Shown here in pieces: positions 43 through 63,422 of a stretch of DNA of 64,000 bases. The stretch covers positions 1 through 64,000 of the forward strand of contig JAKZAN010000355.1 of assembly GCA_023053545.1 (NCBI GenBank), given 5' to 3'. The notes beneath the pieces are model-generated. The model did not search any database and was not told the origin of the DNA. It worked only from the letters and a program-made list of their open reading frames with translations. A program made the translations under genes and the position numbers. The DNA is from Lepidurus packardi (Eukaryota > Arthropoda > Branchiopoda > Notostraca > Triopsidae). How positions within the stretch are numbered: position 1 is the first letter of the stretch; each line of letters begins with the position of its first letter.

Positions 43-488
43 GGGAAGCTCAGTGGATCTGGAGGCAGTATCCTCGACAAATAGCAAGTGACCTGTCGCA
101 GTACCATCATCGCCGGATAAAAGAATGGCACGATGGGTCTATGTCCTCCTACGAGTTGCTTGAGCTCCTGGAGTTCATGCCTGAGCGAGGTGCCTTCAAG
201 ACCGCTGCCAGGGGCGGGGAGTATTCTGGCGATGAAAAGGTTTGGGTTCAGATCGCCAACGAGATAGCGATACTCCGGGCTTCCTATGTCCCCAAGGCCG
301 ATGGCGAACAGTGGGGATCGCAGATTCACCTTTCGCCGTTGAAGCTCAAGGAACTATCCGAGAAAGCCGACGCGCAGGCCGAAGTGCGGGAGAGTTTCTA
401 CGCATTCGCCGCGAAGCCGGGTGTTGCAGAACGCAACACCCCCGAAGTCGGGGATGATGATAACGGCGACCTTGAGGATTGGAGGTGA
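39..488 (+). CDS. Tail assembly chaperone, frameshift-extension domain (T-like)
   Basis: The 149-codon frame has no convincing start of its own. A stop lies at 9-11 in the same frame, and the upstream frame ends at 40-42 next to an A-rich stretch (CCAAAAG, 33-39). Expression by a -1 programmed frameshift near 36-39 is therefore likely, giving a G-T type fusion that chaperones tape measure protein during tail assembly. The segment LLELLEFMPERGAF, followed by NEIAILRAS, resembles the second ORF of actinophage chaperones. The acidic C-terminus contains GVAERNTPE, encoded by a copy of the genome's 19-bp palindrome (421-439). It ends 6 nt before the tape measure start. Confidence 0.72.
   Translation: MREAQWIWRQYPRQIASDLSQYHHRRIKEWHDGSMSSYELLELLEFMPERGAFKTAARGGEYSGDEKVWVQIANEIAILRASYVPKADGEQWGSQIHLSPLKLKELSEKADAQAEVRESFYAFAAKPGVAERNTPEVGDDDNGDLEDWR
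421..439. repeat. 19-bp palindrome copy 1 (spacer AGAAC)
   Basis: GTGTTGC-AGAAC-GCAACAC with perfect 7-bp arms. It lies inside the chaperone coding region and is translated in frame as VAERNT. Confidence 0.9.
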
Positions 489-494
489 GTTGCC

Positions 495-3400
495 TTGGCG
501 ATTCATATCGACATATACGCCCATCTTCGTGAGCAACAGCTGATCAAAGAGGGCGACCAGATCCTCCGGCTCGTCGATCACTACACGGACGAGGCCAACA
601 AGCGTTCGATAAGGGGCGCCCAGGGGCGCTCAAAGAAGCTCATCGCCCTCAACGACAAGCTTGAAACGTCTTTCGACGGCACGATCAACAAGATCGACGA
701 CTTCACTATTGCGCTCAACCGGCAAGAGAGGGCCACGCAAAGTCTTGCAGCCTCCGAGCGGGAAATGATGTTCCTTTTCCTGAGGTCCGAGAAGGATCGG
801 GAGGAGATTACTAAGCGTCACACTGCTAACCAGAAAGAGCTTGCCGCCGCCAATCTGGATCTCGTCTACAAAGGCCAGGCGGTGACCAAGTCGGTTCGTG
901 ATGAAACCCGCGCCAGGTCCGACCTCAACGACGAGAACGCGCTGTACACCAAGAACGCCAAGGAAGTCACGCGCCTGGTTAACCGCAACAGGAAGGAGTT
1001 TACGCAGCTTTCCCGCACCACCAACAAGCTGCGCCGCGAGACGGAAAATCTGCACTCCGCAAACCTTGGCATTGTTCGGGACAACAAAGCCGTCGCCAGG
1101 TCGATGGATGGCATGAGCAAGGCCACTGAGAAGACCTCCAGGGCGCGAGAGCAGTACAACGAAATCCGCAAGAAGGACGGGGTCCGCTCATCGGAGATTA
1201 AGGCTCAGGGTCGCGTTCTCAAGGACGCCCTAGAGGCCGAAGCCCGTCAAGCACAGGACTTGAGTGCACAGATAATCGAGGTCGTTCGACAGCGCCGCAA
1301 TCATGACACCGTAATAAACCAGAACGCGTCTTCGCTGCGCGATCTAACCCAGGACACCATCGACGCGAACCTTCGGGTGCAGCAGTTCCGAGACTCCAAC
1401 CAAAGTCTGATTGACTCAAGCGCGACGCTGAGCCGGCGGTTCGATCGTGTTGGCGATACGACAGAAAAAGTTGTCCGCGAATATCGGAAGTTCAACGAGA
1501 TGTCGCGGGATGGCTCGGTCAGCTCTGCCGCCCTGGCGGTGCAGGTCGGGAAAGTCAATACCGCTTACAGGGATCATCAGAAAGCCGTCAAGGATTCCAG
1601 TGCCGCTCTCGATGAGTATTACAGGCGCCAGGATGATGCCGAGAGAAAGGCGTCACAGGCCGCCTATCAGCAGATGCAGAGGGACAAGAGAAGGATCATG
1701 CCCCAGTCTGCGGGGCAGTACATAGCGCGGAACCTCGGCGCGCTCACCCCGCTGGGTACCTTGTCGCCCTCGGTGCTGCTTCCGGTTGCCGGAATCATAG
1801 GCACCATCGGCGAGGCTGTTGTTACCGCCAGTCAGTCCTTGGCCCTGCTGCCCGCTGCCGCTTACGCGGCAGCAGCGGGCATTGGCACTCTGGTTATCGG
1901 CTTTAGGGGCTTCGGCGACGCCCTCACCGGCATGGGTGACCCCAAGAAGTTCGCGGAGGCGCTGTATACGCTTTCGCCAAACGCCCAGCAGGCCGCGCTT
2001 GCGATCAAGAGTCTTGTCGATGGCCCCCTGGGTGACCTGAAGAGGGCTACCCAGGATGCGCTGTTCGCAAACGTGGGCGTGACCATTCAGAAACTCACGG
2101 AGACGCTTGGTCCGGCGATATCAAGGATGACGACCTCTATCGCTACGTCGCTCAATCAGATGTTCACCGGAATCTCCTTCGAGATGATGACTCCGGAGAT
2201 GTCGGCGCGGATCACCACCATCACCACGAACATCTCAGAGATGTTCAACAATCTCAGGCCAGCTATCTCAGCGTTCAACAGAGCGTTCATGAAAATAGCC
2301 GAGACAGGTTCCGGGTTCCTGCCAGGGCTTGCCGACTCGCTTACAAGCGTGATGACGAAATTCGATGCCTTCATCACCAGGGCGCAGGAGGACGGGTCGC
2401 TGCAGAACTTCATGTCGAAAGGCATCGACGCTATTGCGGCGCTCAGCAAGTGGCTACTTGGGTTCGGTCAAGACATATACAAAGTCTTCGGCAATAAGTC
2501 GCCGGAAGAGTTCATGAACATGCTGAACACCCTGAAGGACGTCGCCATAGGGCTGATCGAGGTATTCCGCGGCGTCGCTTCGGCAATGGATACCTTGGCC
2601 CCGATCATCAAGAACCTTGTCGACTTCTTCGGCGGCTGGGAAAATGTGATGTTGGGAATTGTTTCCGGCGGTCTGCTTGTCGGGCTGTATAAGTTCCTTA
2701 AGTGGGGCAAGGAATTCCTTACCGTTTTCGGCTTGATCGGCCCCGCCGGCGTGAACGCCGCAAGGGGTGTTGGTGCCGTCAGCACGGCCGCCACTATCGC
2801 TGCTGGCGGTTCTGGAGTTACTGCCGCCGCGAAGCAGAGTGCGGCGAATACGGCCTCAGTGTTCGCGGCGGGTGGCACGACCGCGGGTAAGGGCTTCCTC
2901 GCTAATCTCAAGAACTCAATAAAGGGGGGTATCGGACCCGCGATCGGATTGGCGATTGCCGCGCCAATCCTTAACGGCCTTGATCGTGCGTTCAATGAGT
3001 GGATGGCGAGTAAGCAGGACAATCCACAGGAGGCAATGGATAACTACGACCAGAAGACGGAAAGGAATATCTTCCCGCAGTGGTTCCCCATTCTTCCGTT
3101 TTGGGAATCCCTGGTTCGGGACGGCTTGCCGTGGACGGATCAGCCGCCAGCCCCTCCGAAGCCACCGGCCACTGAGAGTTTCTATGAGGACTGGTATCCG
3201 GCAGGCGCGGACCCGGCAGGGGCCATGCCCGAGATACCACCGGGATACCAGTACCCGCTTCCCAACGTGCCGCTGGACGAAAACGGGAAAGCTCTGACGG
3301 AATCCGAAATCCTCAACCAGATTCGGGGACAGCTTCCGCGGGACTCATATGCTGTCGATCCGTTCACCGATCCGATCACCGGCCAGACGCTCAACCCGAT

Positions 3401-6090: not shown

Positions 6091-6109
6091 GTGTTGCAAA
6101 ACGCAACAC
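6091..6109. repeat. 19-bp palindrome copy 2 (spacer AAAAC)
   Basis: Perfect copy in the 61-nt gap between the tape measure stop and the Dit-like gene. It is one of only six copies in the first 36 kb. Confidence 0.92.
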
Positions 6110-9573: not shown

Positions 9574-9592
9574 GTGTTGCAAAACGCAACAC
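9574..9592. repeat. 19-bp palindrome copy 3 (spacer AAAAC)
   Basis: Perfect copy in the 58-nt gap between the Gp37-like gene and the next tail gene, about 18 nt before the latter's ATG. Confidence 0.92.
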
Positions 9593-18048: not shown

Positions 18049-18336
18049 ATGAAGAATCTGAAAATCACCTACGGGGAAGCAGTTCTCTGGGATGGGCCTG
18101 TGAGTTCCCTGGAATGGTCAGACTCTGAGAATGGGGTGAAGATTGAAGGGCGCCTGAAAGCCAAGCCTGTCAGCGGCGGTCCGGGCCTCGGCGGCGGTAT
18201 CCTCGACATGCTGACAAAAGCTTCAAAGGCTAAAGCATCCCAGATGGAAGGGGAAGCCCATGAGGCGGGGGGTGTTGCAAAACGCAACACCCCGATTGTC
18301 GAGACGGTTGAGCCTGAGTTGGAGGATTCTGCGTGA
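18049..18336 (+). CDS. Small tail-operon protein of unknown function (95 aa)
   Basis: ATG preceded by GGGGAAATAA. The N-terminal part is beta-rich, the centre Gly/Lys-rich (SGGPGLGGGILDMLTKASKAKA). Near the end GVAKRNTP is encoded by palindrome copy 4. The stop overlaps the next gene (GTGA). Confidence 0.65.
   Translation: MKNLKITYGEAVLWDGPVSSLEWSDSENGVKIEGRLKAKPVSGGPGLGGGILDMLTKASKAKASQMEGEAHEAGGVAKRNTPIVETVEPELEDSA
18272..18290. repeat. 19-bp palindrome copy 4 (spacer AAAAC)
   Basis: Perfect copy inside the 3' part of the 95-aa gene, read in frame as VAKRNT. The outer bases extend the dyad (GGGGTGTTGC / GCAACACCCC). Confidence 0.92.
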
Positions 18337-19991: not shown

Positions 19992-20010
19992 GTGTTGCAA
20001 AACGCAACAC
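19992..20010. repeat. 19-bp palindrome copy 5 (spacer AAAAC)
   Basis: Perfect copy in the 73-nt gap between two fibre genes, with an extended GGGTGTTGC / GCAACACCC dyad. Confidence 0.92.
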
Positions 20011-31747: not shown

Positions 31748-31766
31748 GTGTTGCAAAACGCAACAC
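31748..31766. repeat. 19-bp palindrome copy 6 at the convergent operon junction (spacer AAAAC)
   Basis: Perfect copy filling the 27-nt gap where the rightward tail operon and the leftward lysis operon meet. The dyad extends to GGGTGTTGC / GCAACACCC. As RNA it could act as a two-way terminator stem, but neither strand shows a U tract. Confidence 0.92.
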
Positions 31767-36512: not shown

Positions 36513-36889
36513 GCGCGAGCGTATTCGACTGTGACCGGGGTGTCGCTGTTCCGTAGATCGCTGAGCGCACGGAAGGCTGCATGGCGATGCCAGGTGGCGG
36601 GGAGGGTGTTGCGTTCTGCAACACCCTCATCGTCTGTTCGACGTGCGTAGAGAACTCCGGCGATGCGAGCGGACTGAGCGATCTTTTCAATCTCCTTGTC
36701 GGTGACCTCAGAGGCTGCTTCAATCACGGCGACCACCCTGGCAGGGACAGTGGGATCGTCCATCCAGCGCAGGATCGTCCGCGACGTGACGTTAAGCTGA
36801 TCGGCCAGCCATGCCGGCGTCAAGCCCAGGCCGGTGAGCGTCACCTTAAGCTCTGCGCCTGACATTGTTCTGCCTGTCATGTCATTCAT
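36509..36889 (-). CDS. HTH DNA-binding protein at the head of the lysis operon (126 aa)
   Basis: The helix-turn-helix is residues ~23-45, LTPAWLADQLNVTSRTILRW, resembling YdiL/DUF1870-type or XRE regulators. It is the first gene after a strong terminator and directly follows an 18-bp dyad (36897-36914) that overlaps its -10 box, so autorepression is likely. The start ATG 36889 fits a leaderless transcript. Palindrome copy 7 lies within the coding region as GVAERNT. By position it may control entry into the lysis operon. Confidence 0.75.
   Translation of the reverse strand: MNDMTGRTMSGAELKVTLTGLGLTPAWLADQLNVTSRTILRWMDDPTVPARVVAVIEAASEVTDKEIEKIAQSARIAGVLYARRTDDEGVAERNTLPATWHRHAAFRALSDLRNSDTPVTVEYARA
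36606..36624. repeat. 19-bp palindrome copy 7 (spacer GTTCT)
   Basis: Perfect arms, inside the HTH gene. Translated on the minus strand as VAERNT. Confidence 0.92.
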
Positions 36890-38251: not shown

Positions 38252-38270
38252 GTGTTGCGAAATGCAACAG
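38252..38270. repeat. 19-bp palindrome copy 8 (spacer GAAAT)
   Basis: One outer mismatch. It lies 5' of the tandem-SH3 gene and is followed on the minus strand by CCCCACGAAAGAAGGAG. Confidence 0.88.
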
Positions 38271-39751: not shown

Positions 39752-39906
39752 CACTGTTCCCCCTTCTCGCCGGTGTTGCGATTTGCAACATCCTCGTCCA
39801 GCGCATCCTCAGGTTCGCCGACGATTTCAATGCCGCCGGCAAACCGGCGAACCGGGGTGTCGTCGTCATCACGCGCCGACTTCCACTCGTCACGCTCCCA
39901 ATCCAT
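39751..39906 (-). CDS. Small acidic protein (51 aa) with palindrome near its end
   Basis: ATG 39906 with TTGAGGAGACCTGAT upstream. MDWERDEWKSARDDDDTPVR, then RFAGGIEIVGEPEDALDEDV and ANRNTGEKGEQ. The VANRNT part is encoded by palindrome copy 9. Confidence 0.6.
   Translation of the reverse strand: MDWERDEWKSARDDDDTPVRRFAGGIEIVGEPEDALDEDVANRNTGEKGEQ
39773..39791. repeat. 19-bp palindrome copy 9 (spacer GATTT)
   Basis: Inside the 51-aa gene. The distal arm ends T instead of C. Confidence 0.9.
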
Positions 39907-40297: not shown

Positions 40298-40634
40298 GGG
40301 ACCCCAGGAGTTCCCAATACTGGGGTCCGTCCAGGCGCCAGCTGATGTCGAGGAACGCGTCGAGCCGGTACGGGCGCTCATGGAGCCACACACAGGTATG
40401 CCAGTCACCTTTGCCCTTGGCCCGCTTCAACGCCGCTTTCTTCTGCTTGAGCTGGGCATTGACGAAGGCGTTCATCGCCGGGTTATGGACGATGCTGAAT
40501 ACGAGCGGGTGCTTGATCGACGGCCCGAACGGCCCGTTCTCATCTATGTATAGCGCCAGCGCCGGGTCCAGATCCTCCTTGGTTCCGAGCAGCTTCTCGA
40601 AGTCCTCCATGGTGTTGCGTTTTGCAACGGTCAT
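40281..40634 (-). CDS. Protein of unknown function (117 aa) starting at a palindrome
   Basis: ATG 40634 overlaps the upstream stop (ATGA). The first residues MTVAKRNTM are encoded by palindrome copy 10, so the site sits directly at the translation start. The rest (FVNAQLKQKKAALKRAKGKG, then DWHTCVWLHERPYRLDAFLD) is basic and helical. Confidence 0.6.
   Translation of the reverse strand: MTVAKRNTMEDFEKLLGTKEDLDPALALYIDENGPFGPSIKHPLVFSIVHNPAMNAFVNAQLKQKKAALKRAKGKGDWHTCVWLHERPYRLDAFLDISWRLDGPQYWELLGSRVVGH
40612..40630. repeat. 19-bp palindrome copy 10 (spacer GTTTT)
   Basis: Begins within 4 nt of the minus-strand ATG 40634 and is coding. The distal arm ends GG. Confidence 0.88.
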
Positions 40635-41348: not shown

Positions 41349-41516
41349 CTAACTGTTGCGGAATGCAACACTCGATGGGCACTTCTCGTACTCGCTATGC
41401 CACCATTGCGTGCTGACAACAATGCCGGTGTTCATGGCGTCATAGTCGCGGGTGGTGGCGATGTTGTACGATTCAATGCCGCAGGGGCACTGGCCGTCCG
41501 TAGGACCCGTGCTCAT
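41349..41516 (-). CDS. Small CxC protein (55 aa) ending in a palindrome
   Basis: ATG 41516 overlaps the previous stop (ATGA). MSTGPTDGQCPCGIESYNIA at the start; the C-terminal SVAFRNS is encoded by palindrome copy 11. Three Cys may bind metal. Confidence 0.6.
   Translation of the reverse strand: MSTGPTDGQCPCGIESYNIATTRDYDAMNTGIVVSTQWWHSEYEKCPSSVAFRNS
41353..41371. repeat. 19-bp palindrome copy 11 (spacer GGAAT)
   Basis: One outer mismatch (CTGTTGC). Located in the last codons of the 55-aa gene and next to the 41309-41343 hairpin. Confidence 0.85.
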
Positions 41517-42752: not shown

Positions 42753-42771
42753 GTGTTGCGTTTTGCAACAG
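42753..42771. repeat. 19-bp palindrome copy 12 (spacer GTTTT)
   Basis: Upstream of the clamp start, in the Ku-clamp gap. One outer mismatch. Confidence 0.9.
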
Positions 42772-43772: not shown

Positions 43773-43791
43773 GTGTTGCGTTTTGCAACAC
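43773..43791. repeat. 19-bp palindrome copy 13 (spacer GTTTT)
   Basis: Perfect copy upstream of ku, followed on the minus strand by TTTCCCCACGAAAGAAAG and the start region. Confidence 0.93.
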
Positions 43792-44090: not shown

Positions 44091-44109
44091 GTGTTGCGTT
44101 TTGCAACAT
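44091..44109. repeat. 19-bp palindrome copy 14 (spacer GTTTT)
   Basis: In the leader of the Ku operon, about 64 nt downstream of the -10 box. The proximal arm is perfect; the distal arm ends T. Confidence 0.91.
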
Positions 44110-44172: not shown

Positions 44173-44201
44173 ATTATACCATAGACAAGGGTATTTGTCA
44201 A
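44173..44201 (-). promoter_or_regulatory. Strong sigma70-type promoter for the Ku operon
   Basis: Minus strand TTGACA (44201-44196), exactly 17 nt, TATAAT (44178-44173). Both boxes are perfect consensus. It is one of five leftward promoters with identical spacing. Confidence 0.88.
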
Positions 44202-45772: not shown

Positions 45773-46131
45773 TTCTTATTACCTTCTTCCTGTGGGGTGG
45801 CGTTGCAATTTGCAACACCGTAGGCCGGCAGCTCGTATCCGTTTTTGGTGAGCCACCAGTCTGTTTCACTCCATGCCGTATCGACATGGAAGCCGTTATC
45901 GACAGCAAGAGCGCCGGTACCGCAGCACTGGCAGCCACCGGAAATGCCGATGTCCTCTGCGACGCCGGGCGGAACTTGCCACCGAACCCAATCCTCGCCG
46001 TCCAGCCGATAGACCAGAATGGGCGTCAACCACGGCAGGAGTTTTTCCATGTGCCGGTGATCGTTGGGGCGCGGCGCCCGTACCAGAACCGTCGGTTCCA
46101 GGTCGTGATGATCAGCGCGGATCAAGCGCAC
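45769..46131 (-). CDS. Protein of unknown function (120 aa)
   Basis: GTG 46131 with AAGGGGAATACAAA upstream. WLTPILVYRLDGEDWVRWQV, then GGCQCCGTGALAVDNGFHVD, with three Cys close together; near the end GVANCNATP comes from palindrome copy 15. It overlaps the ParB-like start (GTGA). Confidence 0.6.
   Translation of the reverse strand: MRLIRADHHDLEPTVLVRAPRPNDHRHMEKLLPWLTPILVYRLDGEDWVRWQVPPGVAEDIGISGGCQCCGTGALAVDNGFHVDTAWSETDWWLTKNGYELPAYGVANCNATPQEEGNKK
45800..45818. repeat. 19-bp palindrome copy 15 (spacer AATTT)
   Basis: One proximal mismatch (GCGTTGC), inside the 120-aa gene just before the ParB-like gene. Confidence 0.88.
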
Positions 46132-46289
46132 TTTGTATTCCCCTTCTTTTGATGGTTAACCATGTTGCAGATTGCAACATGATTTCCTTTCCGGCACTCC
46201 CACCGCATAGCACGGCAGAAATACGCTGACGAGCAGCGGGCATAGGCTGGGTAGCCGGGTATCGGAATGCAGACTTCTGCCTCATCCAC
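46122..46289 (-). CDS. Cys-rich small protein, NUMOD4-like fragment (55 aa)
   Basis: GTG 46289 near the upstream stop. CIPIPGYPAYARCSSAYFCR recalls the start of NUMOD4 (IPGYxxY), but no nuclease follows. The C-terminal part NHVAICNMVNHQKKG carries palindrome copy 16. May be a stand-alone DNA-binding piece. Confidence 0.5.
   Translation of the reverse strand: MDEAEVCIPIPGYPAYARCSSAYFCRAMRWECRKGNHVAICNMVNHQKKGNTKCA
46162..46180. repeat. 19-bp palindrome copy 16 (spacer AGATT)
   Basis: ATGTTGC / GCAACAT: the outer pair is changed on both sides, so symmetry is kept by compensating bases. Coding in the 55-aa gene. Confidence 0.9.
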
Positions 46290-47672: not shown

Positions 47673-47691
47673 GTGTTGCGTTTTGCAACAC
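47673..47691. repeat. 19-bp palindrome copy 17 (spacer GTTTT)
   Basis: Perfect copy between the AAA ATPase stop and the 275-aa gene start. Confidence 0.93.
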
Positions 47692-47699: not shown

Positions 47700-49412
47700 C
47701 TAGAAGTCCAGCGTGCGGACATTTTTCTGCGCCTGCGGGGTGCTGACATCGGGTCGCGTTGCCAGCCGGGCACGGCTCGACCACGCCGTCCGAAGCTGCT
47801 CGATCTTCTCCGATGACGTGCGGGACAACGGAATGATCTTGTTCGCCGCGGTCACGATGTCGTTCGTCGTGACCTCGCGCGCCCCGTCAGCGAACGCCGA
47901 GAACATGGCATCGTGTTCGATAGCCGCAGCGACCTCAGCGCCGGTGAACCCAGCCGTAGCATCGGCCACGGCGTGCAGGTCGATGCCCAGCTTCTTGGCA
48001 TCACGCCCATTGCTCCGCAACGTCGCTACAGCGATAGCCGCACGCTCCGACTTGGTGGGCAGGTCGATGAACCAGATGTCGTCGAAACGGCCCTTACGCA
48101 GGAACTCCGGCGGCAGTGCAGACGGATCGTTGGCTGTCATCATCACGAATGCCTGACCGGAACGATCGTTCATCCACGTCAGGATCGCGCCCAACGCATC
48201 AGAAGAAACGCCACCGTCAGAACTGCCGGATGTTGCACCTTGCAACGCCTTCTCAACCTCGTCGATGTAGACGATGACCTGACCGATAGCGTCGATCAGG
48301 CTGAAGATGGATCGCAACCGGGACTCCGACTCGCCGACATACTTGCCTTTCAGGGCGTTGATGTCGAGACGCATCACCGGCCAGCCCCACTCTGAGCCGA
48401 GGGCTTGGCAGGACAGCGTTTTACCGCAGCCGGAAACGCCGAGCAGCATCACACCCTTGGCGAGCTTGAGGCCGTAGGCGCGGGCTTCCGGTGTGAACGT
48501 GATGCGAGTCCGGGCCATCTCCTCCTTGAACAGGTCGAGTCCACCGACAGAATCGAACCCGCCGGGGCGAGGCTCGTAGTACGTCAACGCCGGTTCGCGG
48601 TTGATGAGGCGTTTCTTCTCTGCGCTGATCGCAGCCACGTCGATGTTGCCGCCTTCGATCAGCGACCGGGCGAACGTGGTCTGAACTTCCAGCGAGGACA
48701 GACCGACGGCCGCATCTACAGCAGAATCGCGGACGCCACCCTTGCTGAGAGCGTCCTTGACCCTGCTCTGAAGCGGATTGGTGTCGCTGTTCGGCAGCAC
48801 GCTGATCTGATTTTCCAGGATCTCGTTGATCTCGTCTCGGTCAGGCAGCGGCCAGTTGATGACGTCGAGTTCACCGTTGGACAGGGCCGGCGGCGGCGAG
48901 TCTCCTGAGGACACGATGATGATCGCCTGAGCCACGTTACGGGCTGTGCCTGACAGTCCATCGGGGCGCAGCATGTTGCGGATTTTCCGGAGCGTCACCG
49001 CACCGGCAACGCCTTCCAGCCACGGGCCCAAGTCCCGCAGAATCCAGACGTTGCGGTCGGTGTCATTGTTGGAGATGTTCGCCTTCGACTTGTCCTCGAT
49101 CAGCTTGAGGATCTCGTCGGGGCCTTCGGCGGCGTTGTAGTCGGGGTTTCCCCGAACCGGGGAGCCGTCGATATCGACCGCGCCGTTGGCGATGTCCCAG
49201 ATGCGGGGCCGATACCCGGCCTTGGCGATAGCCGGAATCAAGTCCTGCTCGGTGCGGGCCTCGTCCTTGCTGACGATCCAGAAGCCAGCGCAGCGTGCCC
49301 TGAGAGCGAGGGTAATCGCCTGACCGGCGACCTGACCCCTAGTTGGGGTGTTGCGTTCTGCAACAGGCACTTCGACTACAACGGGTGCTTCGACTGTTTT
49401 TGCGTTGGGCAT
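47700..49412 (-). CDS. AAA+ ATPase, Ycf46/FtsH-like (570 aa)
   Basis: Residues ~20-280 are a degenerate N-terminal domain as in Ycf46-like proteins (FWIVSKDEARTEQDLIPAIA). The AAA core has Walker A GVSGCGKT (325-332), Walker B VIVYIDEVEKA (from 389), sensor-1 MMTANDPSALP and arginine finger FLRKGRFDDIWF (about 438-449); the lid follows (FTGAEVAAAIEHDAMFSAF). It should form an ATP-driven hexamer that remodels protein or DNA complexes. Palindrome copies lie at the N-terminus (copy 19, VAERNT) and in the core (copy 18). It opens the operon behind promoter B. Confidence 0.87.
   Translation of the reverse strand: MPNAKTVEAPVVVEVPVAERNTPTRGQVAGQAITLALRARCAGFWIVSKDEARTEQDLIPAIAKAGYRPRIWDIANGAVDIDGSPVRGNPDYNAAEGPDEILKLIEDKSKANISNNDTDRNVWILRDLGPWLEGVAGAVTLRKIRNMLRPDGLSGTARNVAQAIIIVSSGDSPPPALSNGELDVINWPLPDRDEINEILENQISVLPNSDTNPLQSRVKDALSKGGVRDSAVDAAVGLSSLEVQTTFARSLIEGGNIDVAAISAEKKRLINREPALTYYEPRPGGFDSVGGLDLFKEEMARTRITFTPEARAYGLKLAKGVMLLGVSGCGKTLSCQALGSEWGWPVMRLDINALKGKYVGESESRLRSIFSLIDAIGQVIVYIDEVEKALQGATSGSSDGGVSSDALGAILTWMNDRSGQAFVMMTANDPSALPPEFLRKGRFDDIWFIDLPTKSERAAIAVATLRSNGRDAKKLGIDLHAVADATAGFTGAEVAAAIEHDAMFSAFADGAREVTTNDIVTAANKIIPLSRTSSEKIEQLRTAWSSRARLATRPDVSTPQAQKNVRTLDF
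48230..48248. repeat. Degenerate 19-bp palindrome copy 18 (spacer ACCTT)
   Basis: ATGTTGC / GCAACGC within the AAA core, next to the Walker B region. The inner TGTTGC / GCAAC is intact. It could be chance. Confidence 0.55.
49348..49366. repeat. 19-bp palindrome copy 19 (spacer GTTCT)
   Basis: In the 5' part of the AAA gene, read as VAERNT. One outer mismatch. Confidence 0.9.
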
Positions 49413-49446: not shown

Positions 49447-49465
49447 GTGTTGCATTTTGCAACAC
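49447..49465. repeat. 19-bp palindrome copy 20 (spacer ATTTT)
   Basis: Perfect copy in the AAA operon leader, about 35 nt downstream of the promoter B -10 box. CCCCCACGAAAAAGAAAG follows on the minus strand. Confidence 0.93.
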
Positions 49466-49499: not shown

Positions 49500-49528
49500 A
49501 TTCTACCAGGTCAGAGCCATTTTGTCAA
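49500..49528 (-). promoter_or_regulatory. Promoter B for the AAA ATPase operon
   Basis: Minus strand TTGACA (49528-49523), 17 nt, TAGAAT (49505-49500). The spacer ends ...GACCTGG, shared with promoter C. Confidence 0.85.
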
Positions 49529-50056: not shown

Positions 50057-50329
50057 TTAGACTGTTGCACTTTGCAACGCCTTCACGTCCACAAACGACA
50101 CGAAGAATCCCGGCAAGGGAACCGGCAGACTCGGATTAGTCCGGTGACGCAACTCGTTGACAGCGTTTTTGTCACCCGCAGACGCGAACGCCCACAAATC
50201 CGAGACGGACATTTTTCGGTAGGTGGTGTCGATGTCGCGCACAAACACCTGTCCATCCCGGGGCGGGTACAGCACCTGGACGTGCCTATCCGGCCCTGCC
50301 ATCGCAACATCGCCCGGTTTCCACTGCAT
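50057..50329 (-). CDS. Protein of unknown function after the ligase (90 aa)
   Basis: ATG 50329 in TGATG overlap with the ligase stop. MQWKPGDVAMAGPDRHVQVL, then YPPRDGQVFVRDIDTTYRKM, suggests an SH3-like fold. Palindrome copy 21 overlaps its last codons. Confidence 0.6.
   Translation of the reverse strand: MQWKPGDVAMAGPDRHVQVLYPPRDGQVFVRDIDTTYRKMSVSDLWAFASAGDKNAVNELRHRTNPSLPVPLPGFFVSFVDVKALQSATV
50062..50080. repeat. 19-bp palindrome copy 21 (spacer ACTTT)
   Basis: Degenerate outer bases (CTGTTGC / GCAACGC), at the 3' end of the 90-aa gene. Confidence 0.75.
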
Positions 50330-51393
50330 CACCGGTCGCCCTGCTTGAACTTCATCTGGCTAATGATGCACTCGCTGGGGAGAATATCGTCCCGCACACC
50401 GAGGTACACCGGCTGGTAAATCCTTCGACCTGCCGTTGCATAGAGGTACCGAATCTCCACGACGTCGCCGGCCTTGGGGATCTCCTTGTTCGGCGGAATG
50501 GCGCAGTCACCGACATAAACCCACTTCTCGCCGTCGAAAAGGCTCACCGACACCGATCGCTTGTCGTTGATCCGAGCGACAATCGCGGACAGCGTTGCCA
50601 CGAACTTCAACTTGAGCTGAGGCCCGCCGAAGCTGGGCCTGCCGGCCCGGTACGGAGAGTCGAGCCGCTTGAACACCACACCCTCGGCGTTGGCCTGTCG
50701 CAGCCTCAACAGGTTGTCTGCCTTATCGACGGTATCCGTCCATGCCTCAACAACGCGGATCGTGCCACCGTTGCGAAATGCAACACCCGCCAACCCCAGC
50801 AGCCGGTAGCGATTCTCTGCATCCACACCACGGATGTCTTTGCCGTCGAAGCTGAGCAGATCGAATGCGTGGTAGACGTTTCCGATCACCTCACCATCGA
50901 AAGTGAAGTCCTGAGTGATGCAGAGAGCGGCGTCCACAAGAGACTGGGATACGGCGGTAACAACACCCAACTTGTTGATGCCCTCGACCACAGTGCCGGT
51001 TTTCCGAAGGATCAGACGGCGGCCGTCCATCTTCTCCTGCATCATCCACGCCGGGTCACCGACCAGAGACACGGCTTGCCGCTCGTCGATAGTGTTAAGT
51101 AGCTGCGGCTTCACGTCCGCGGCGACCTTATTGACGTTGGACTGGTACGGGGTGCCAGCCGCGCCCTCGGTGTAGCCTTTGGCCTGCTTCTCGTTCACCA
51201 GCCTGGTAAAGATTTTCTCGGCTGCCGTCAGCGCCACCGGGCTGGTGGTCTTGGTGCCGGTCGTCAGCGTCGAGTTGCGCTTACCGTAGGCGAAGTTGAC
51301 ACGGTAGCCGCCTTCATCGGGGTCGATGGAGGCCTGATAGACCTTGTCGGATCGCTCGTCGGTGTAGTACAGGGTAATGGTTTTGACCGTCAT
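50329..51393 (-). CDS. ATP-dependent DNA ligase with N-terminal WGR domain (354 aa)
   Basis: ATG 51393 with GGAGGGAAAAGA upstream. Residues ~1-75 form a WGR-like domain (YRVNFAYGKRNS, then EKIFTRLVNEKQAKGY). The ligase core starts near 90: motif I MQEKMDGRRL with Lys121 as the adenylation site, motif III FDGEVIG, IIIa YHAFDLLSFDGKD, motif IV AEGVVFKR, motif V LKLKFVAT. An OB-fold completes the C-terminus. It seals nicks or ends using ATP. WGR domains bind DNA ends in PARPs, so this fusion may guide the ligase to breaks. With Ku it could form an end-joining pair. Palindrome copy 22 lies in the gene as GVAFRNGG. Confidence 0.9.
   Translation of the reverse strand: MTVKTITLYYTDERSDKVYQASIDPDEGGYRVNFAYGKRNSTLTTGTKTTSPVALTAAEKIFTRLVNEKQAKGYTEGAAGTPYQSNVNKVAADVKPQLLNTIDERQAVSLVGDPAWMMQEKMDGRRLILRKTGTVVEGINKLGVVTAVSQSLVDAALCITQDFTFDGEVIGNVYHAFDLLSFDGKDIRGVDAENRYRLLGLAGVAFRNGGTIRVVEAWTDTVDKADNLLRLRQANAEGVVFKRLDSPYRAGRPSFGGPQLKLKFVATLSAIVARINDKRSVSVSLFDGEKWVYVGDCAIPPNKEIPKAGDVVEIRYLYATAGRRIYQPVYLGVRDDILPSECIISQMKFKQGDR
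50768..50786. repeat. 19-bp palindrome copy 22 (spacer GAAAT)
   Basis: Inside the ligase gene between motif IIIa and motif IV. One proximal mismatch (CCGTTGC). Confidence 0.85.
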
Positions 51394-51940: not shown

Positions 51941-52353
51941 GATGCTCCTTCTGTGTCGTTGTTGCGTTTTGCAACACCGGCCAACTCAGCCAGTGCCGAC
52001 TCCACCATCTCGGGAAGGCTTTCAGCCCGACTATCCATATCCACGACGTCGACGATCGAATCGTCGGCGCCCATCCACCCCTCGTCGCCGCCCTGATCCT
52101 CGTAAATACCGATCGACCAGCCTGCGGCGTTATGGTCATCGCCATAGTGAGCGTTGTAGTTATCCGAATGCGACTCCGCGTCGATGCGATCACGAAACCC
52201 GCTCAGGTTTTCATCTGTGGCCACGATCCAATGCCCGGACTCAAGGCGCGCCTCTAGCGCCATGCACCCGCCGCCCGTGTGAATCTCGGTGAAGACGATG
52301 CCGAACCGGGACTGGACATCGGCCAGGATCTCCGTAGCCTTCTCGCCGCTCAT
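51937..52353 (-). CDS. TGGGCMALEA-family protein, copy B (138 aa)
   Basis: Paralogue of copy A: FGIVFTEIHTGGGCMALEAR, then NAAGWSIGIYEDQGGDEGWM. The C-terminus ELAGVAKRNND contains palindrome copy 23. Function unknown. Confidence 0.65.
   Translation of the reverse strand: MSGEKATEILADVQSRFGIVFTEIHTGGGCMALEARLESGHWIVATDENLSGFRDRIDAESHSDNYNAHYGDDHNAAGWSIGIYEDQGGDEGWMGADDSIVDVVDMDSRAESLPEMVESALAELAGVAKRNNDTEGAS
51959..51977. repeat. 19-bp palindrome copy 23 (spacer GTTTT)
   Basis: Coding at the C-terminus of copy B. One outer mismatch (TTGTTGC). Confidence 0.9.
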
Positions 52354-52972: not shown

Positions 52973-53001
52973 GGCCGGTGTTGCAAAACGCAACACCGGC
53001 C
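52973..53001 (-). terminator. Terminator-like hairpin built on palindrome copy 24
   Basis: Perfect 12-bp stem GGCCGGTGTTGC / GCAACACCGGCC with loop AAAAC, followed on the minus strand by TTTCG. It lies between the 47-aa gene stop and the GNAT gene. Confidence 0.65.
52978..52996. repeat. 19-bp palindrome copy 24 (spacer AAAAC)
   Basis: Perfect copy forming the top of the 52973-53001 hairpin. Confidence 0.95.
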
Positions 53002-53151: not shown

Positions 53152-53276
53152 TCGGCTGATCCTGAGCACTCGTAGTCCCCGACCTGGCACCCGGAATGAC
53201 CGGGATGGGCCTGCGCCTGCGGAGCGAGGCCGACAGCTGCCAACCACGCAGCGACGGCGAGTGTTGCAAAACGCAT
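53148..53276 (-). CDS. Secreted microprotein (42 aa) whose start lies in a palindrome
   Basis: ATG 53276 is formed by the variant palindrome arm GTGATGC of copy 25. MRFATLAVAAWLAAVGLAPQ is a Sec signal peptide (cleavage near AQA), leaving a ~20-aa tail (HPGHSGCQVGDYECSGSAE) with two Cys. The upstream stop overlaps as TGATG. Confidence 0.58.
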   Translation of the reverse strand: MRFATLAVAAWLAAVGLAPQAQAHPGHSGCQVGDYECSGSAE

Positions 53277-53279
53277 CAC
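53261..53279. repeat. 19-bp palindrome copy 25, variant arm (spacer AAAAC)
   Basis: GTGTTGC / GCATCAC. The variant base creates the ATG of the secreted microprotein on the minus strand. Confidence 0.9.
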
Positions 53280-53569: not shown

Positions 53570-53709
53570 CGGGCATCCTTCCTATTCTGAGCGCGGGCCA
53601 GCAGCCACGCCAATGCCCCATCGACATGGCAAGAGCAAGCGCAGCCGTAGTGATCGTCCTGAGAGTCAGGGCAGTTCTTGTGATCGCCGCTCACGCAGAA
53701 GCCGGTCAT
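53566..53709 (-). CDS. Cys/His-rich microprotein (47 aa)
   Basis: ATG 53709 in TGATG overlap. MTGFCVSGDHKNCPDSQDDH, then YGCACSCHVDGALAWLLARA. The CxCxC-H arrangement suggests metal binding. Confidence 0.58.
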   Translation of the reverse strand: MTGFCVSGDHKNCPDSQDDHYGCACSCHVDGALAWLLARAQNRKDAR

Positions 53710-54038: not shown

Positions 54039-54166
54039 TTGATCTTCTCCTTCTGTTCGGTGTTGCGATTTGCAACATGCCAGTCGTCATTGCACGAATG
54101 GCGGTGGTTCTTCGTTTCGCTGCAGATGGGGCAACGCGGCCACTGCTGTCCGGCGGCGCTCACCAT
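54035..54166 (-). CDS. Zinc-finger microprotein (43 aa) with palindrome
   Basis: ATG 54166. CPICSETKNHRHSC forms a C-x2-C / H-C knuckle. The end, WHVANRNTEQKEKIK, is encoded by palindrome copy 26. Confidence 0.58.
   Translation of the reverse strand: MVSAAGQQWPRCPICSETKNHRHSCNDDWHVANRNTEQKEKIK
54060..54078. repeat. 19-bp palindrome copy 26 (spacer GATTT)
   Basis: Coding as VANRNT in the 43-aa gene. The distal arm ends T. Confidence 0.91.
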
Positions 54167-54351: not shown

Positions 54352-54662
54352 GAATCCACCGCGAATCCACCGATTTCGACTAGGCGCATGAGCCGCTTGA
54401 TCGGCACGGCGTGCTCCATGCCGGTGACGCTGGTGATGCGGAGGTACGCATCGCGCACGTCCTGATCGCTTCCGATGAACCCGAAATTGTCCAGCCCCTG
54501 CACGATGTGCCGTGCAGTGCCCTCATGGATGGTGTAGCCGTCACTGTCCAGCCACCGCACCTTGGCGCTGCGTGAAGCAGCGTCGGTGATGACATACAGC
54601 TGATGGATCTGCGGGACGGTGACGATGGGCGTTGCATTTTGCAACACTTCGTTATTACTCAC
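54348..54662 (-). CDS. Protein of unknown function (104 aa)
   Basis: GTG 54662 in GTGA overlap. The N-terminus NNEVLQNATPIV contains palindrome copy 27 in a different frame from VAKRNT. Rest: HQLYVITDAASRSAKVRWLD, then YLRITSVTGMEHAVPIKRLM. Confidence 0.6.
   Translation of the reverse strand: MSNNEVLQNATPIVTVPQIHQLYVITDAASRSAKVRWLDSDGYTIHEGTARHIVQGLDNFGFIGSDQDVRDAYLRITSVTGMEHAVPIKRLMRLVEIGGFAVDS
54629..54647. repeat. 19-bp palindrome copy 27 (spacer ATTTT)
   Basis: Coding, reads LQNAT near the N-terminus of the 104-aa protein. One proximal mismatch (GCGTTGC). Confidence 0.88.
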
Positions 54663-55161: not shown

Positions 55162-55505
55162 GAGTCGCCTGCCAGGGCATTCTCGTAGCCGTCCATGTCC
55201 GACACGTCGGAGTCGTAGTTCGACATGTTCGACCGCCAGTTGCGGTTCAGCCGCTGCCCGGTCGCCGAGTAGCAGGCTCCGCACTTGTCGCAGTCGGTTT
55301 CCCGGCTGCTGCTCTGAACCGTCGTGCCGCAGTTTCCGCACGGCCACTCGCGGTGGGTGTGAACCTTGGCGTACTTACCGGCGGAGCGGGCCTCGTTGCA
55401 GACGCGGTACGCCTCGTCGTCGTCGGGGGTGTTGACGAGGTTGTTGCCCTCGCCGTCCCAGACGTGGTAGGTGATGGTGATTTTGTTGTCGATTGCCTTG
55501 CTCAT
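55158..55505 (-). CDS. Zinc-ribbon protein (115 aa)
   Basis: ATG 55505 with AAGGGAAAAAACAG upstream. WPCGNCGTTVQSSSRETDCD, then KCGACYSATGQRL, is a four-Cys zinc ribbon following a small alpha/beta domain (YHVWDGEGNNLVNTPDDDEA). Function unknown. Confidence 0.66.
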   Translation of the reverse strand: MSKAIDNKITITYHVWDGEGNNLVNTPDDDEAYRVCNEARSAGKYAKVHTHREWPCGNCGTTVQSSSRETDCDKCGACYSATGQRLNRNWRSNMSNYDSDVSDMDGYENALAGDS

Positions 55506-55696
55506 CTGTTTTTTCCCTTCTCAGTGGGTGATGCGATTTGCAACACCATTGCGTGCGGATTGAAGTAGGACGGGTGGGCGAACTCAGAGATCGACGTCCA
55601 CCCGTAGACATCGGCGGGGCGATACCACGTCACGCCGTTGCTGTCGGTGCGCGCCGGATACATCAGATCGACGCGCTCGACGGGAACGTGCTTCAT
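55502..55696 (-). CDS. Small protein (64 aa) with palindrome near its end
   Basis: ATG 55696. VDLMYPARTDSNGVTWYRPA, then FNPHAMVLQIASPTEKGKNR; the LQIASP part is encoded by palindrome copy 28. ATGA overlap downstream. Confidence 0.58.
   Translation of the reverse strand: MKHVPVERVDLMYPARTDSNGVTWYRPADVYGWTSISEFAHPSYFNPHAMVLQIASPTEKGKNR
55528..55546. repeat. 19-bp palindrome copy 28, variant arm (spacer GATTT)
   Basis: GTGATGC / GCAACAC. The variant arm is typical of the region right of 53 kb. Confidence 0.9.
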
Positions 55697-55920
55697 GATG
55701 CCGGTGTTGCGTTATGCAACATGCCGTAGTAGTCGCCGTCGACGGGGAACTCGCGCAGCACGGCGGCAGCTTCGGCCACCGTGATTTTTCCGATGGACGT
55801 GTACCACTGCACCTGCCCTTCGGCCAGCGAGCGGGCGCGACCGCAGCCGCGCCGCGACATGTGCCGCACCTTGGCGGCGAGCGCGTCCACGACGTTGTGA
55901 CGCACAGCTGAGGCGGTCAC
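55693..55920 (-). CDS. Small basic protein (75 aa)
   Basis: GTG 55920 in GTGA overlap. VVDALAAKVRHMSRRGCGRA, then WYTSIGKITVAEAAAVLREF; the C-terminus MLHNATPAS comes from palindrome copy 29. Function unknown. Confidence 0.6.
   Translation of the reverse strand: MTASAVRHNVVDALAAKVRHMSRRGCGRARSLAEGQVQWYTSIGKITVAEAAAVLREFPVDGDYYGMLHNATPAS
55703..55721. repeat. 19-bp palindrome copy 29 (spacer GTTAT)
   Basis: Coding at the C-terminus of the 75-aa protein. The distal arm ends T. Confidence 0.9.
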
Positions 55921-56236: not shown

Positions 56237-56255
56237 GTGATGCGATTTGCAACAC
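56237..56255. repeat. 19-bp palindrome copy 30, variant arm (spacer GATTT)
   Basis: In the promoter C leader, about 38 nt from the -10 box, followed by CCCCCACGAAACAGAGAGG on the minus strand. Confidence 0.91.
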
Positions 56256-56292: not shown

Positions 56293-56321
56293 ATAATACC
56301 AGGTCAAGGCCATTTTGTCAA
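56293..56321 (-). promoter_or_regulatory. Promoter C
   Basis: Minus strand TTGACA (56321-56316), 17 nt, TATTAT (56298-56293). The spacer is nearly identical to that of promoter B. The leader contains GGTCAGAGATGGGCC, shared with promoter D. Confidence 0.86.
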
Positions 56322-56383: not shown

Positions 56384-56422
56384 AAAAAAGGGCGAGGCAT
56401 TGCAAAATGCAACACCCCGCCC
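56384..56422 (-). terminator. Intrinsic terminator with palindrome copy 31 at its apex
   Basis: Minus strand GGGCGGGG...CCTCGCCC stem with the palindrome in the upper part, followed by six T (complement of 56384-56389). It ends the 57-58 kb unit just ahead of promoter C. Confidence 0.82.
56397..56415. repeat. 19-bp palindrome copy 31 (spacer AAAAT)
   Basis: GCATTGC / GCAACAC. The proximal arm has two changes; part of the 56384-56422 terminator. Confidence 0.8.
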
Positions 56423-56990: not shown

Positions 56991-57009
56991 GTGTTGCATT
57001 CCGCATCAC
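56991..57009. repeat. 19-bp palindrome copy 32, variant arm (spacer ATTCC)
   Basis: GTGTTGC / GCATCAC, extended by GGGCCGG / CCGGCCC to a long hairpin. Confidence 0.88.
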
Positions 57010-57657: not shown

Positions 57658-57676
57658 GTGTTGCATTTCGCACCAC
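57658..57676. repeat. 19-bp palindrome copy 33, variant arm (spacer ATTTC)
   Basis: GTGTTGC / GCACCAC, extended by GGGCAGG / CCTGCCC. Confidence 0.85.
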
Positions 57677-58139: not shown

Positions 58140-58486
58140 TTGCTGGCACCTGTGTTGCGAATCGCATCACCCTTCCAGCAGTCGCATCCCATGCCGGCGA
58201 GACGTCGAGAGCACCAACCGCCCGGGCACTCGACGGGGAAGTCCTCGCCGATCTCCATAGCGCGTTGCAGCAGGCTTATCGACACGCAGGCCAGCGCAGC
58301 GGCGATAGCGTCGAGCGTCGGGAAGCTCGGCCACTTTTTGCCGTTCTCGATCTCAGCCAGGAACGGGTAGCTGATCCCGGCGGCGGCGGCGAGTTCCTTC
58401 CGCTTCATGCCCTGCTCCAATCGGGTGCAGGCGATAGCGCGGCCCAGATAGACCGCGTTAGGGTTTACAGCTTTTTTCTCGGACAT
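58136..58486 (-). CDS. XRE-family HTH regulator (116 aa)
   Basis: ATG 58486. LGRAIACTRLEQGMKRKELA, then AAAGISYPFLAEIENGKKWP and SFPTLDAIAAALACVSISLL, is a full XRE/Cro HTH. The tail has Cys residues (CPGGWC, CDCW) and ends DAIRNTGASK, encoded by palindrome copy 34. Candidate regulator of the right-arm early genes. Confidence 0.82.
   Translation of the reverse strand: MSEKKAVNPNAVYLGRAIACTRLEQGMKRKELAAAAGISYPFLAEIENGKKWPSFPTLDAIAAALACVSISLLQRAMEIGEDFPVECPGGWCSRRLAGMGCDCWKGDAIRNTGASK
58152..58170. repeat. 19-bp palindrome copy 34, variant arm (spacer GAATC)
   Basis: GTGTTGC / GCATCAC, coding at the C-terminus of the XRE regulator. Confidence 0.88.
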
Positions 58487-58551: not shown

Positions 58552-58570
58552 GTGCTGCGAAATGCAACAC
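58552..58570. repeat. 19-bp palindrome copy 35, variant arm (spacer GAAAT)
   Basis: GTGCTGC / GCAACAC, extended by GGCAGG / CCTGCC. Confidence 0.86.
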
Positions 58571-58998: not shown

Positions 58999-59017
58999 GT
59001 GATGCGATTTGCAACAC
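58999..59017. repeat. 19-bp palindrome copy 36, variant arm (spacer GATTT)
   Basis: GTGATGC / GCAACAC, in the promoter D leader before the 81-aa gene, followed by CCCCACGAAAAAAGAGAGG. Confidence 0.91.
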
Positions 59018-59150: not shown

Positions 59151-59179
59151 ACTCTACCATAGACAGCCCAAAATGTCAA
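59151..59179 (-). promoter_or_regulatory. Promoter D
   Basis: Minus strand TTGACA (59179-59174), 17 nt, TAGAGT (59156-59151). The spacer ends TGTCTATGG as in the Ku promoter. Confidence 0.83.
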
Positions 59180-59232: not shown

Positions 59233-59273
59233 CAAAAAGGGCCGAGGCATTGCGAAATGCAACACCCCGGCCC
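59233..59273 (-). terminator. Intrinsic terminator with palindrome copy 37 at its apex
   Basis: Minus strand GGGCCG / CGGCCC stem enclosing the palindrome, followed by five T (complement of 59234-59238). It lies just ahead of promoter D, the same design as at 56384-56422. Confidence 0.8.
59247..59265. repeat. 19-bp palindrome copy 37 (spacer GAAAT)
   Basis: GCATTGC / GCAACAC inside the 59233-59273 terminator. Confidence 0.8.
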
Positions 59274-59543: not shown

Positions 59544-59562
59544 GTGATGCGAAATGCAACAC
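59544..59562. repeat. 19-bp palindrome copy 38, variant arm (spacer GAAAT)
   Basis: GTGATGC / GCAACAC, extended by CGGGCAGG / CCTGCCCG to a long hairpin. Confidence 0.9.
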
Positions 59563-59798: not shown

Positions 59799-59817
59799 AT
59801 GTTGCAAAACGCATCAC
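59799..59817. repeat. 19-bp palindrome copy 39, variant arm (spacer AAAAC)
   Basis: ATGTTGC / GCATCAC, just upstream of promoter E and at the edge of the tandem array. This is the only palindrome upstream rather than downstream of its promoter. Confidence 0.85.
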
Positions 59818-60153: not shown

Positions 60154-60172
60154 GTGATGCGATTCGCAACAC
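60154..60172. repeat. 19-bp palindrome copy 40, variant arm (spacer GATTC)
   Basis: GTGATGC / GCAACAC within array 2. Confidence 0.9.
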
Positions 60173-60208: not shown

Positions 60209-60227
60209 GTGATGCGATTCGCAACAC
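60209..60227. repeat. 19-bp palindrome copy 41, variant arm (spacer GATTC)
   Basis: Identical to copy 40, 55 bp further on. Confidence 0.9.
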
Positions 60228-62340: not shown

Positions 62341-62348
62341 ACACAGCC

Positions 62349-62818: not shown

Positions 62819-63231
62819 GCGTCCTCGGTGGTAGCGGCTTCCAGTGCCTCAATCAGGGCTGCCGCTGCAGGCGATGCTTGGACGGCTTCGACGACGGGTT
62901 CATCGACCGGGTCCGCGACGACGGGTTCATCAACGGGTTCATCGTCAGACTCGTCCGGGGCGTCGGCCACGACGTCATCGAGATTCTGCGCGACCGCTTT
63001 CAGGGCCGCCACAGCGTCGGTCACTTCCTGGGTCTGCTCACCGGAAGACGCCAACGCATCTTCCAGTGCCTCGATCTTGCCGGTGACTTCGGCCTCGGCT
63101 TTGTCCAGCTGGTCTTTGATGCCGCGCAAATCGTCAGCGAGTGCCATCAGTAACTCCTTGGTTCGGTATTCGGTGAACAGGCCCATCAGCAGCAAGATGC
63201 CCAGAATGAACAGAGTGAAGGCAACTTCCAC
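62815..63231 (-). CDS. Membrane-anchored coiled-coil protein (138 aa)
   Basis: GTG 63231. One N-terminal transmembrane helix (VAFTLFILGILLLMGLFTEY), a coiled coil (GIKDQLDKAEAEVTGKIEAL), then an acidic Asp/Glu/Pro repeat (DDEPVDEPVVADPVDEPVVE). Layout resembles the DUF2746-type protein of the lysis cassette, so a lysis or envelope role is possible. Confidence 0.63.
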   Translation of the reverse strand: MEVAFTLFILGILLLMGLFTEYRTKELLMALADDLRGIKDQLDKAEAEVTGKIEALEDALASSGEQTQEVTDAVAALKAVAQNLDDVVADAPDESDDEPVDEPVVADPVDEPVVEAVQASPAAAALIEALEAATTEDA

Positions 63232-63248
63232 GCCGTAAGGATACGCCC

Positions 63249-63422
63249 CTACTTCGCTCCCGTTAAAAGCAACCGCTTATCCAGGAGCTCGTCTACACAG
63301 GCCATTAGCTTGTCGATGTCGTGGGATTCCGCCTTTAGAAGTTGCGCCCAGGCTCGGGTTATCTCCAAGTCCAATGCTTCCAATGAGGAGGGTGTTGCAT
63401 TTCGCAACGGGCCGTTACTCAT
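63249..63422 (-). CDS. Small helical protein (57 aa) with palindrome near its start
   Basis: ATG 63422 overlaps the upstream gene end. MSNGPLRNATPSSLEALDLE; the LRNATP part is encoded by palindrome copy 44. Then RAWAQLLKAESHDIDKLMAC. Function unknown. Confidence 0.6.
   Translation of the reverse strand: MSNGPLRNATPSSLEALDLEITRAWAQLLKAESHDIDKLMACVDELLDKRLLLTGAK
63392..63410. repeat. 19-bp palindrome copy 44 (spacer ATTTC)
   Basis: GTGTTGC / GCAACGG, coding near the N-terminus of the 57-aa protein. Rightmost copy seen. Confidence 0.85.

Follow-up and report, generated by a model that had tools for sequence, protein, structure and literature searches.

A dispersed palindrome in a Corndog-like phage contig, a re-spelled counterpart of the Cluster O repeat, and its candidate ParB/KorB-type binder

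The stretch of DNA considered here, positions 1 to 64,000 on the forward strand of contig JAKZAN010000355.1 in the Lepidurus packardi assembly GCA_023053545.1 (this whole stretch is called the window below), carries dozens of copies of the palindrome GTGTTGC-N5-GCAACAC and belongs to a phage which, judged by its genes, is a distant relative of the Cluster O phages (Corndogvirus). As far as can be read from the sequences, the palindrome is the counterpart of the Cluster O repeat, that is, the same system with a different inner sequence. The explanation that we consider best, with a probability of roughly 0.5, is that about 48 putative sites over the whole 83-kb genome serve one phage-encoded dimeric DNA-binding protein, which would make this a Cluster O system that was re-spelled and has a role like that of KorB. 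The outcome of the analysis is a short list of candidate binders, one leading and two rival.

Within the window there are 11 perfect copies of the palindrome, 22 that deviate at one position, nine at two and six at three, which gives 42 sites at up to two mismatches and 48 at up to three, the latter against 4.31 ± 2.19 (maximum 9) in 100 dinucleotide-preserving shuffles. At up to two mismatches, the first 36 kb hold six sites and the rest of the window 36, and the total for the contig becomes 48 once the stretches beyond the window (L125 and L126) are added. A sequence-only reading of the window had counted about 44 copies, six of them in the first 36 kb, which is right within the choice of cut-off; it had also proposed to compare the copy number with shuffled sequence and to look for the sites in relatives, and both the excess and the conservation were found. 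The contig sites are near-perfect dyads, in contrast to the asymmetric stoperators of Cluster A, and at 46162..46180 (two mismatches, ATGTTGC...GCAACAT) both outer bases have indeed changed together, as that reading had noticed for its copy 16. Its description of the centre as varying and AT-rich is borne out as well; what it missed is that the centre is polarised with transcription. In all 44 contig sites with an assignable transcription strand, the centre begins with a purine and ends with a pyrimidine, and on the transcribed strand A...C outnumbers G...T by 27 to 6 (p = 3e-4), as compared to 28:12 for the polarity in the Cluster O phage Catdawg (p = 0.017). In 27 site pairs shared with contig 3300020562_000013, matched by hand using order and flanks, the inner TGC/GCA is identical in 27/27, while identity is 94% for the arms, 67% for the centre and 50-54% for the flanks.

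The window represents bases 1-64000 of an 83,344-bp contig (C344) in an assembly of 108.6 Mb and 344 contigs, which suggests that the phage contig is a passenger within a eukaryote assembly. Placement near Cluster O follows from PHROGs and tblastn, with identities to Cluster O of 88% for the major tail protein, 76% for the terminase, 71.6% for the AAA ATPase, 67% for the capsid, 64-73% for minor tail proteins, 60% for Ku and 55% for the ParB-like protein. Forty-five contig genes have Catdawg counterparts (E 1e-8), and their order is that of Catdawg, circularly permuted. The tail-chaperone gene is divided between the contig ends (82878-83342 and 177-488), and the contig is therefore probably a whole phage genome. 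A Gordonia/Tsukamurella phage lookalike was rejected, its match being limited to one tail-fibre stretch.

The repeat of Corndog, TGTTCGG-N3-CCGAACA, was described to occur 34 times, and in the passages cited here its function was left open in 2015, although the authors expected a dimeric binder and named gp53, gp76 and the ParB-like gp90 as DNA-binding candidates (PMC4351075). Catdawg has 34 exact copies and 41 at up to one mismatch. A de novo palindrome search gave the extended forms GGTGTTCGG...CCGAACACC for Catdawg and GGTGTTGC...GCAACACC for the window contig, in which outer letters and spacing are identical and inner letters differ, so that both palindromes fit one 17-bp frame, GGTGT…ACACC. 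The Cluster O sequence is absent from the window even at one mismatch, and Catdawg and the window phage each lack the other's 17-bp code at the same tolerance. Via protein matches, 22 of the 48 contig sites could be mapped to Catdawg; in 13 of these 22 a Catdawg site lies within 60 nt of the predicted position, against a null mean of 1.43 and maximum of 7, and none of 5000 circular shifts did as well. Three of the orthologous sites are intragenic and lie at most 6 nt from the predicted codon, namely 421..439 in the tail-chaperone coding sequence 177-488(+) (exact; Catdawg 26640), 36606..36624 in the helix-turn-helix (HTH) gene 36509-36865(-) (exact; same codon as Catdawg 46622) and 49348..49366 in the AAA ATPase gene (one mismatch; same codon as Catdawg 61321). 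Others lie between genes: 6091..6109 between the tape-measure and minor tail genes (exact; Catdawg 31730), 9574..9592 between minor tail genes (exact; Catdawg 35264), 40612..40630 in a gene gap (two mismatches; Catdawg 49291), 42753..42771 in the beta clamp gene leader (one mismatch; Catdawg 51135 and also the third lineage, L231), 43773..43791 in the Ku gene leader (exact; Catdawg 54470), 47673..47691 in the gap between the AAA ATPase gene and 46813-47640 (exact; matched to Catdawg 59611) and 49447..49465 in the AAA ATPase leader (exact; Catdawg 61402 and L231). The symmetric variant at 46162..46180 is orthologous to Catdawg 57047. The sequence-only reading had supposed a system analogous to that of Cluster O with a new sequence. 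The new sequence stands, but analogy is too weak a term because the window phage itself is a distant relative of Cluster O; many of the sites appear to be positionally orthologous, with only the inner sequence changed.

Relatives extend the series of spellings. In IMGVR 3300027985_000560 (L223, L231), whose ParB-like protein is 55% identical, TGTACGG-N3-CCGTACA occurs 15 times exactly and once with one mismatch. A further Corndog-like sample, 18 contigs retrieved by means of their major tail protein, has TGTTGC or TGTTGCG in eight (L241-L245, L247, L248, L254), TGTTCGG in L246, TGTTCAA in L249 and L256, TGTCCGG in L250 and L251, and one TGTCCGG plus one TGTACGG each in L252, L253 and L255, while L257 and L258 showed no palindrome in the 17-bp frame. 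When seven other sequences were tested with five 17-bp codes, each had exact copies of its own code only; the whole records of the L252 and L255 contigs have TGTACGG mixed with TGTCCGGCTGCCGGACA, and code exclusivity is thus imperfect there. Parsimony on a tree of 14 of the 20 available tips (near-duplicates and fragments omitted, several nodes with support 43-66) requires at least six changes of code, with TGTTGC and TGTTCAA each in two places. We read this as the same network occurring in at least five spellings, with the sites apparently kept in place. Clustered arrangements were seen in L250 and L251, where three TGTCCGG sites stand in a row, 25-28 bp apart, next to single ones, and in a 49% GC contig without ParB_N (L303, 6316-6460), where seven tandem TGTCCGG-N3-CCGGACA are spaced by 20-22 bp.

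One site that is retained across lineages lies inside the tail-chaperone gene. The gene was found in 15 of 16 sequences, and in 14 of these 15 the lineage's own palindrome is present at the same point, the exception being L252, which has no site there; for L248 and L242 the script flagged another inverted repeat, with the site present in the printed sequence. The encoded peptide tracks the spelling: GVAERNT or GVAKRNT with TGTTGC, GVQQLNT with TGTTCAA, GVRKPNT with TGTTCGG (one mismatch in Catdawg) and GVRFPDS with TGTCCGG. To judge from these alignments, a constraint at the DNA level operates inside this coding gene.

The binder is probably the ParB/KorB-type protein of 494 amino acids (ParB_N plus HTH) encoded at 44288-45772 on the minus strand; its profile matches, predicted fold and varying DNA-contact residues all point to it. 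It scores 33.5 bits with Pfam ParB_N (cut-off 26.3) and 62.8 with NCBIfam TIGR00180 (cut-off 58.45), against which the Cluster O and L223 proteins stay below the cut-off at 45.3 and 48.8. The family profile matches ten solved Spo0J, ParB, Noc and KorB sequences across the CTPase and HTH parts, and the CTP-binding motifs GQRRT and ENDHR/ENDQR are conserved in 29 aligned sequences, which is a statement about sequence. The AlphaFold2 model (pLDDT 86.8, pTM 0.51) has as its best Foldseek match the KorB-KorA-DNA complex 8qa9 (E 2.3e-8), followed by ParB, Spo0J and Noc chains, and its alignment with 1r71, the DNA-binding domain of KorB bound to its operator, has a TM of 0.73 by target. Contact and specificity positions were taken from Caulobacter ParB (PMC7383237) and mapped by an alignment at about 25% identity. 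The residues at positions 173, 178, 179, 184 and 201 are P, K, S, G and D in the window phage, S, H, A, S and A in Cluster O and P, L, S, A and A in L223, so that all five vary between the three lineages as compared to 23/53 positions in the region (p = 0.012); in the TGTTGC group (the window phage and two relatives) one of the five varies. A re-spelling of the whole set of sites would accompany a change in the DNA-contact residues of the ParB-like protein.

As to function, we tentatively propose, at slightly less than even odds, that the ParB-like protein acts like KorB and not as a partition protein. It would load at the palindromes, perhaps slide as a CTP clamp, and hold back or block RNA polymerase in gene leaders and a short way downstream of early promoters. 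Such a transcription hold is our first choice because of the fold, the number of sites, their placement at 35-41 bp behind promoter-like sequences and their occurrence in leaders. Gene calls from a simple codon-usage caller put 31 of the 48 contig sites between genes and 17 inside them, and 21 of the 48 are followed by a called start at a distance of 12-55 nt, which is true of 10.4% of random points (p = 3e-9). Leader sites include 38252..38270, 54060..54078 (before 53709-54038), 55528..55546 (before 55158-55505) and 45800..45818, which lies 27 nt before the start of the ParB-like gene itself, each with one mismatch. Among 19 promoter-like sequences from three lineages (own contig, Catdawg and L231), the next site downstream lies 35-41 bp past the -10 in seven, against at most 1.3% of random points, and within 75 bp in ten, against at most 11%. 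The region 41.0-60.9 kb has four promoter-like sequences with scores of 10-12 out of 12, all on the minus strand: 44173..44201 (12/12), with the site 44091..44109 (one mismatch) at 65 bp past the -10; 49500..49528 (11/12), with the exact AAA ATPase leader site 49447 at 36 bp; 56293..56321 (11/12), with 56237..56255 (one mismatch, leader) at 39 bp; and 59151..59179 (10/12), with 58999..59017 (one mismatch, leader) at 135 bp.

A more far-reaching version, which we regard as possible but rather doubtful, is that of a genome-wide clamp-loading network of which the spelling is repeatedly rewritten: the specificity of the ParB/KorB-type protein would change, some 40 sites would follow, in set places near promoters, in leaders and even within proteins, and each lineage would end up with a private, non-cross-reacting code. 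The pressure for this could be privacy from co-infecting relatives and from plasmids with kindred ParB-like proteins. Dozens of sites and a protein changing in step, with the places kept, would form a rare natural record.

Several observations weigh against a KorB-like system served by the ParB-like protein. The comparison of contact residues covers three pairs of protein and code, and the choice of positions, and with it the p value, goes back to a paper and to an alignment at about 25% identity. In KorB, residues beyond the HTH are used as well. Phage Adler has a ParB-like protein that is 32% identical over its length and no repeated palindrome. Kin of the protein are common on actinobacterial plasmids and chromosomes (370 plasmid records; 80 of 238 related stretches were kept), and at only 10 of the 80-84 loci scanned a palindrome with 7-base arms occurs at least three times; the palindromes near these bacterial ParB-like genes are suggestive only. 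The promoter-like sequences of 41.0-60.9 kb are not in excess, four against 4.5 in shuffles, and 12 of the 19 have no site at 34-42 bp. In the third lineage, L231, ten of the 48 contig sites could be mapped and three of these match, which 217 of 5000 shifts equalled; the small number of shared genes is one reason for the weakness of this comparison. Finally, in the passages cited here, the Cluster O authors thought it unlikely that the repeats take part in transcription initiation, given that most of them lie away from promoters, and they noted little orientation (PMC4351075).

The main alternative to a KorB-like transcription hold is that the same sites and the same ParB-like protein serve genome handling, such as segregation, compaction, protection or packaging in a Noc- or parS-like manner, and not mainly transcription. 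We consider this unlikely, if still the strongest competitor. It agrees with the membership of the ParB family, with sites on both arms, inside genes (17/48) and in gaps between tail and head genes, and with the clustering at 25-28 bp in several relatives; yet neither the polarity with transcription nor the constant spacing from promoter-like sequences is what it would lead one to expect. A scan of part of the contig's genes revealed no ParA gene, and the Cluster O authors judge in the cited passages that gp90 is unlikely to serve genome stability (PMC4351075).

Somewhat less likely still is a small HTH protein as the binder, either the kin of Corndog gp76 encoded at 36509-36865(-) or an Xre-type protein resembling gp53, which the contig encodes at about 82372-82797. 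The two are conserved in the window clade as well as in Cluster O, the gp76-like gene itself holds one of the conserved sites, and a 17-bp odd-centred palindrome suits a dimer of the lambda HTH type. Against this, the recognition helices are nearly constant across the codes. R29, T30, R33 and W34 of the gp76-like protein are invariant in 32/32 aligned sequences, and the Xre-type helix PPLGLGRIE is the same in the TGTTGC (one I for L), TGTTGCG, TGTTCGG and TGTACGG lineages; those with TGTTCAA and TGTCCGG deviate from it in one or two residues, one position being N, R or S. Moreover, Bipper and Typha have a 34% identical gp76-like protein and no repeated palindrome; such palindromes were sought in Adler, Bipper, Typha and MooMoo, and none was found. 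ParB-like and gp76-like genes were not found on 11 and 12 left-arm fragments, which are uninformative as they are fragments. In the openly licensed literature we found no paper naming the binder of the Cluster O palindrome.

It is very improbable that the repeats work at the RNA level, as leader or terminator hairpins with a role in stability, processing or termination. Some sites do lie within longer perfect stems or before T runs, and 21/48 are in leaders. Extra flank pairs extend the exact site 52978..52996 (five) and the single-mismatch sites 56991..57009 (ten; after a stop codon), 57658..57676 (seven), 58552..58570 (seven) and 59544..59562 (nine); two sites with two mismatches lie within a hairpin followed by a T run (56397..56415) and inside a terminator-like hairpin 59273-59239(-) (59247..59265). 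These few cases stand against a third of the sites being intragenic and one stem sequence per genome that changes together between lineages. Mispairs on the transcribed strand are G.U in 9 and A.C in 10 cases in the own contig, with 6 vs 3 and 3 vs 2 in two relatives; pooled over the three genomes this gives 18 vs 15 (p = 0.73), and the missing G.U bias implies that the sites are read as DNA and not as RNA. An RNA-structure reading was rejected on this ground and on that of Rfam, a scan of which gave no matches at the gathering threshold. The dimeric DNA-binding protein that the sequence-only reading had postulated gains support from the same absence of bias, from the dyad symmetry, from the use of one sequence per genome and from the invariant inner bases. 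The least probable reading of all is that of a mobile or recombination element that spreads and has no fixed binder. The many copies and the deletions between repeats reported by the Cluster O authors (PMC4351075) would fit it; against it stand orthologous places with different spellings and flanks of 50-54% identity around invariant inner bases.

The remaining sites of the window are as follows. Exact copies occur within a small called ORF at 18049-18336(+) (18272..18290), between tail genes (19992..20010) and in a convergent gap (31748..31766). Intragenic sites are 39773..39791 (one mismatch) in the called ORF 39751-39906(-), 48230..48248 (two mismatches) in the AAA ATPase coding sequence, common to 3300020562 with no Catdawg site there, 50768..50786 (two mismatches) in the DNA ligase-like gene and 54629..54647 (one mismatch) in the 5' part of 54348-54662. 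Single mismatches characterise 41353..41371, 51959..51977, 53261..53279, 55704..55722 and 58152..58170, and two mismatches 50062..50080, 59799..59817 and 63392..63410. The sites 60154..60172 and 60209..60227 (one mismatch each) lie in a local tandem repeat, being surrounded by tandem GGTGGCCGAGGTCTGGCC repeats at 60.1-60.4 kb. Several sites at 56.9-58.6 kb adjoin another repeated hairpin, CCCCACGG...CCGTGGGG in type, which is also present in a relative (L060).

Palindromes and ParB-like genes were also met together elsewhere. In a stretch of the mycobacterial plasmid pMyong1 (L237, 18155-25280), six copies of TGGCCACC-N4-GGTGGCCA occupy gaps between genes, downstream of a ParB-like gene with 43% identity; in 25.6 kb of pMyong1 none of three codes was found at up to two mismatches, apart from one chance-like two-mismatch match. 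The plasmid was included on account of two copies of the O repeat that are reported for strain 05-1390 (PMC4351075). L281 and L270 (G017 and G018), contigs of about 48 kb with a GC content of 45-48%, have 8 and 10 spread palindromes of the TGTTCAAWTTTTGAACA type and a ParB_N protein of 454-464 aa each, one resembling a ParB-methylase fusion; of the Corndog-like genes tested, none is present on the loci examined. Several ParB_N proteins of palindrome-rich contigs resemble such fusions. In Microbacteriaceae (L159, L160, L163, L174 and L215), GAGGGG-N4-CCCCTC palindromes are repeated near ParB-like genes. An association of ParB_N with palindrome-rich contigs outside the Corndog group was considered post hoc and set aside. 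Above the cut-off, ParB_N was present in 4/8 of these contigs, two of the eight being Corndog-like fragments without it, as compared to 3/31 contigs in which one chance site occurs (p = 0.02); at E 0.001 the numbers, 5/8 vs 16/31, show nothing.

Among the other genes of the phage, 42855-43739 encodes a Ku-like protein above the NCBIfam Ku_bact cut-off and 50329-51393 weakly matches ATP-dependent DNA ligases, a possible end-joining pair in one phage. The first 135 residues of the endolysin (34744-35889) are 43% identical to part of the Catdawg tape-measure gene and also match several tape-measure families, which would point to domain exchange between lysin and tape measure. A tRNA search found none.

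Compared with known systems, the palindrome stands closest to the Cluster O repeat, with which it has in common a Corndog-like host phage, the 17-bp frame TGT...ACA with GG/CC flanks, a similar number of sites, an A/T-rich centre, a right arm richer in sites and orthologous positions. It differs in having inner GC-N5-GC instead of CGG-N3-CCG, more single-arm variation and a stronger polarity of the centre with transcription. The start-associated sequences of Cluster K are closely tied to translation starts; of the contig sites, 21/48 precede a called start by 12-55 nt and 17/48 lie inside genes. Cluster A stoperators, which are asymmetric and bound by the immunity repressor, are similar in that many sites lie in short gaps and that there is some orientation relative to transcription (PMC4351075); the sites of the window phage are dyads, with an orientation seen in the centre only (27:6), and lysogeny is not known in this group of phages.

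ParB-parS and Noc-NBS sites are 16-bp palindromes with TGTT-type ends. Their proteins share the CTPase and HTH architecture and the switching of specificity by few contact residues (PMC7383237), but the sites are of even length and a ParA or membrane partner is involved, whereas the phage uses an odd 17-bp frame and has no such partner known. The KorB/OB system of plasmid RK2 offers a ParB-type fold, many dispersed palindromic operators and control of transcription, KorB being a clamp with CTPase activity that leaves its operators by sliding and silences distant promoters (PMC11790492). Sequence and length of the operator differ from those of the phage site, and no KorA partner was identified in the phage. 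The sites of the window phage are about four times more numerous than the KorB operators of RK2. Should the ParB-like protein prove to be the binder, a virus would here be applying a KorB-type clamp to the genome that encodes it.

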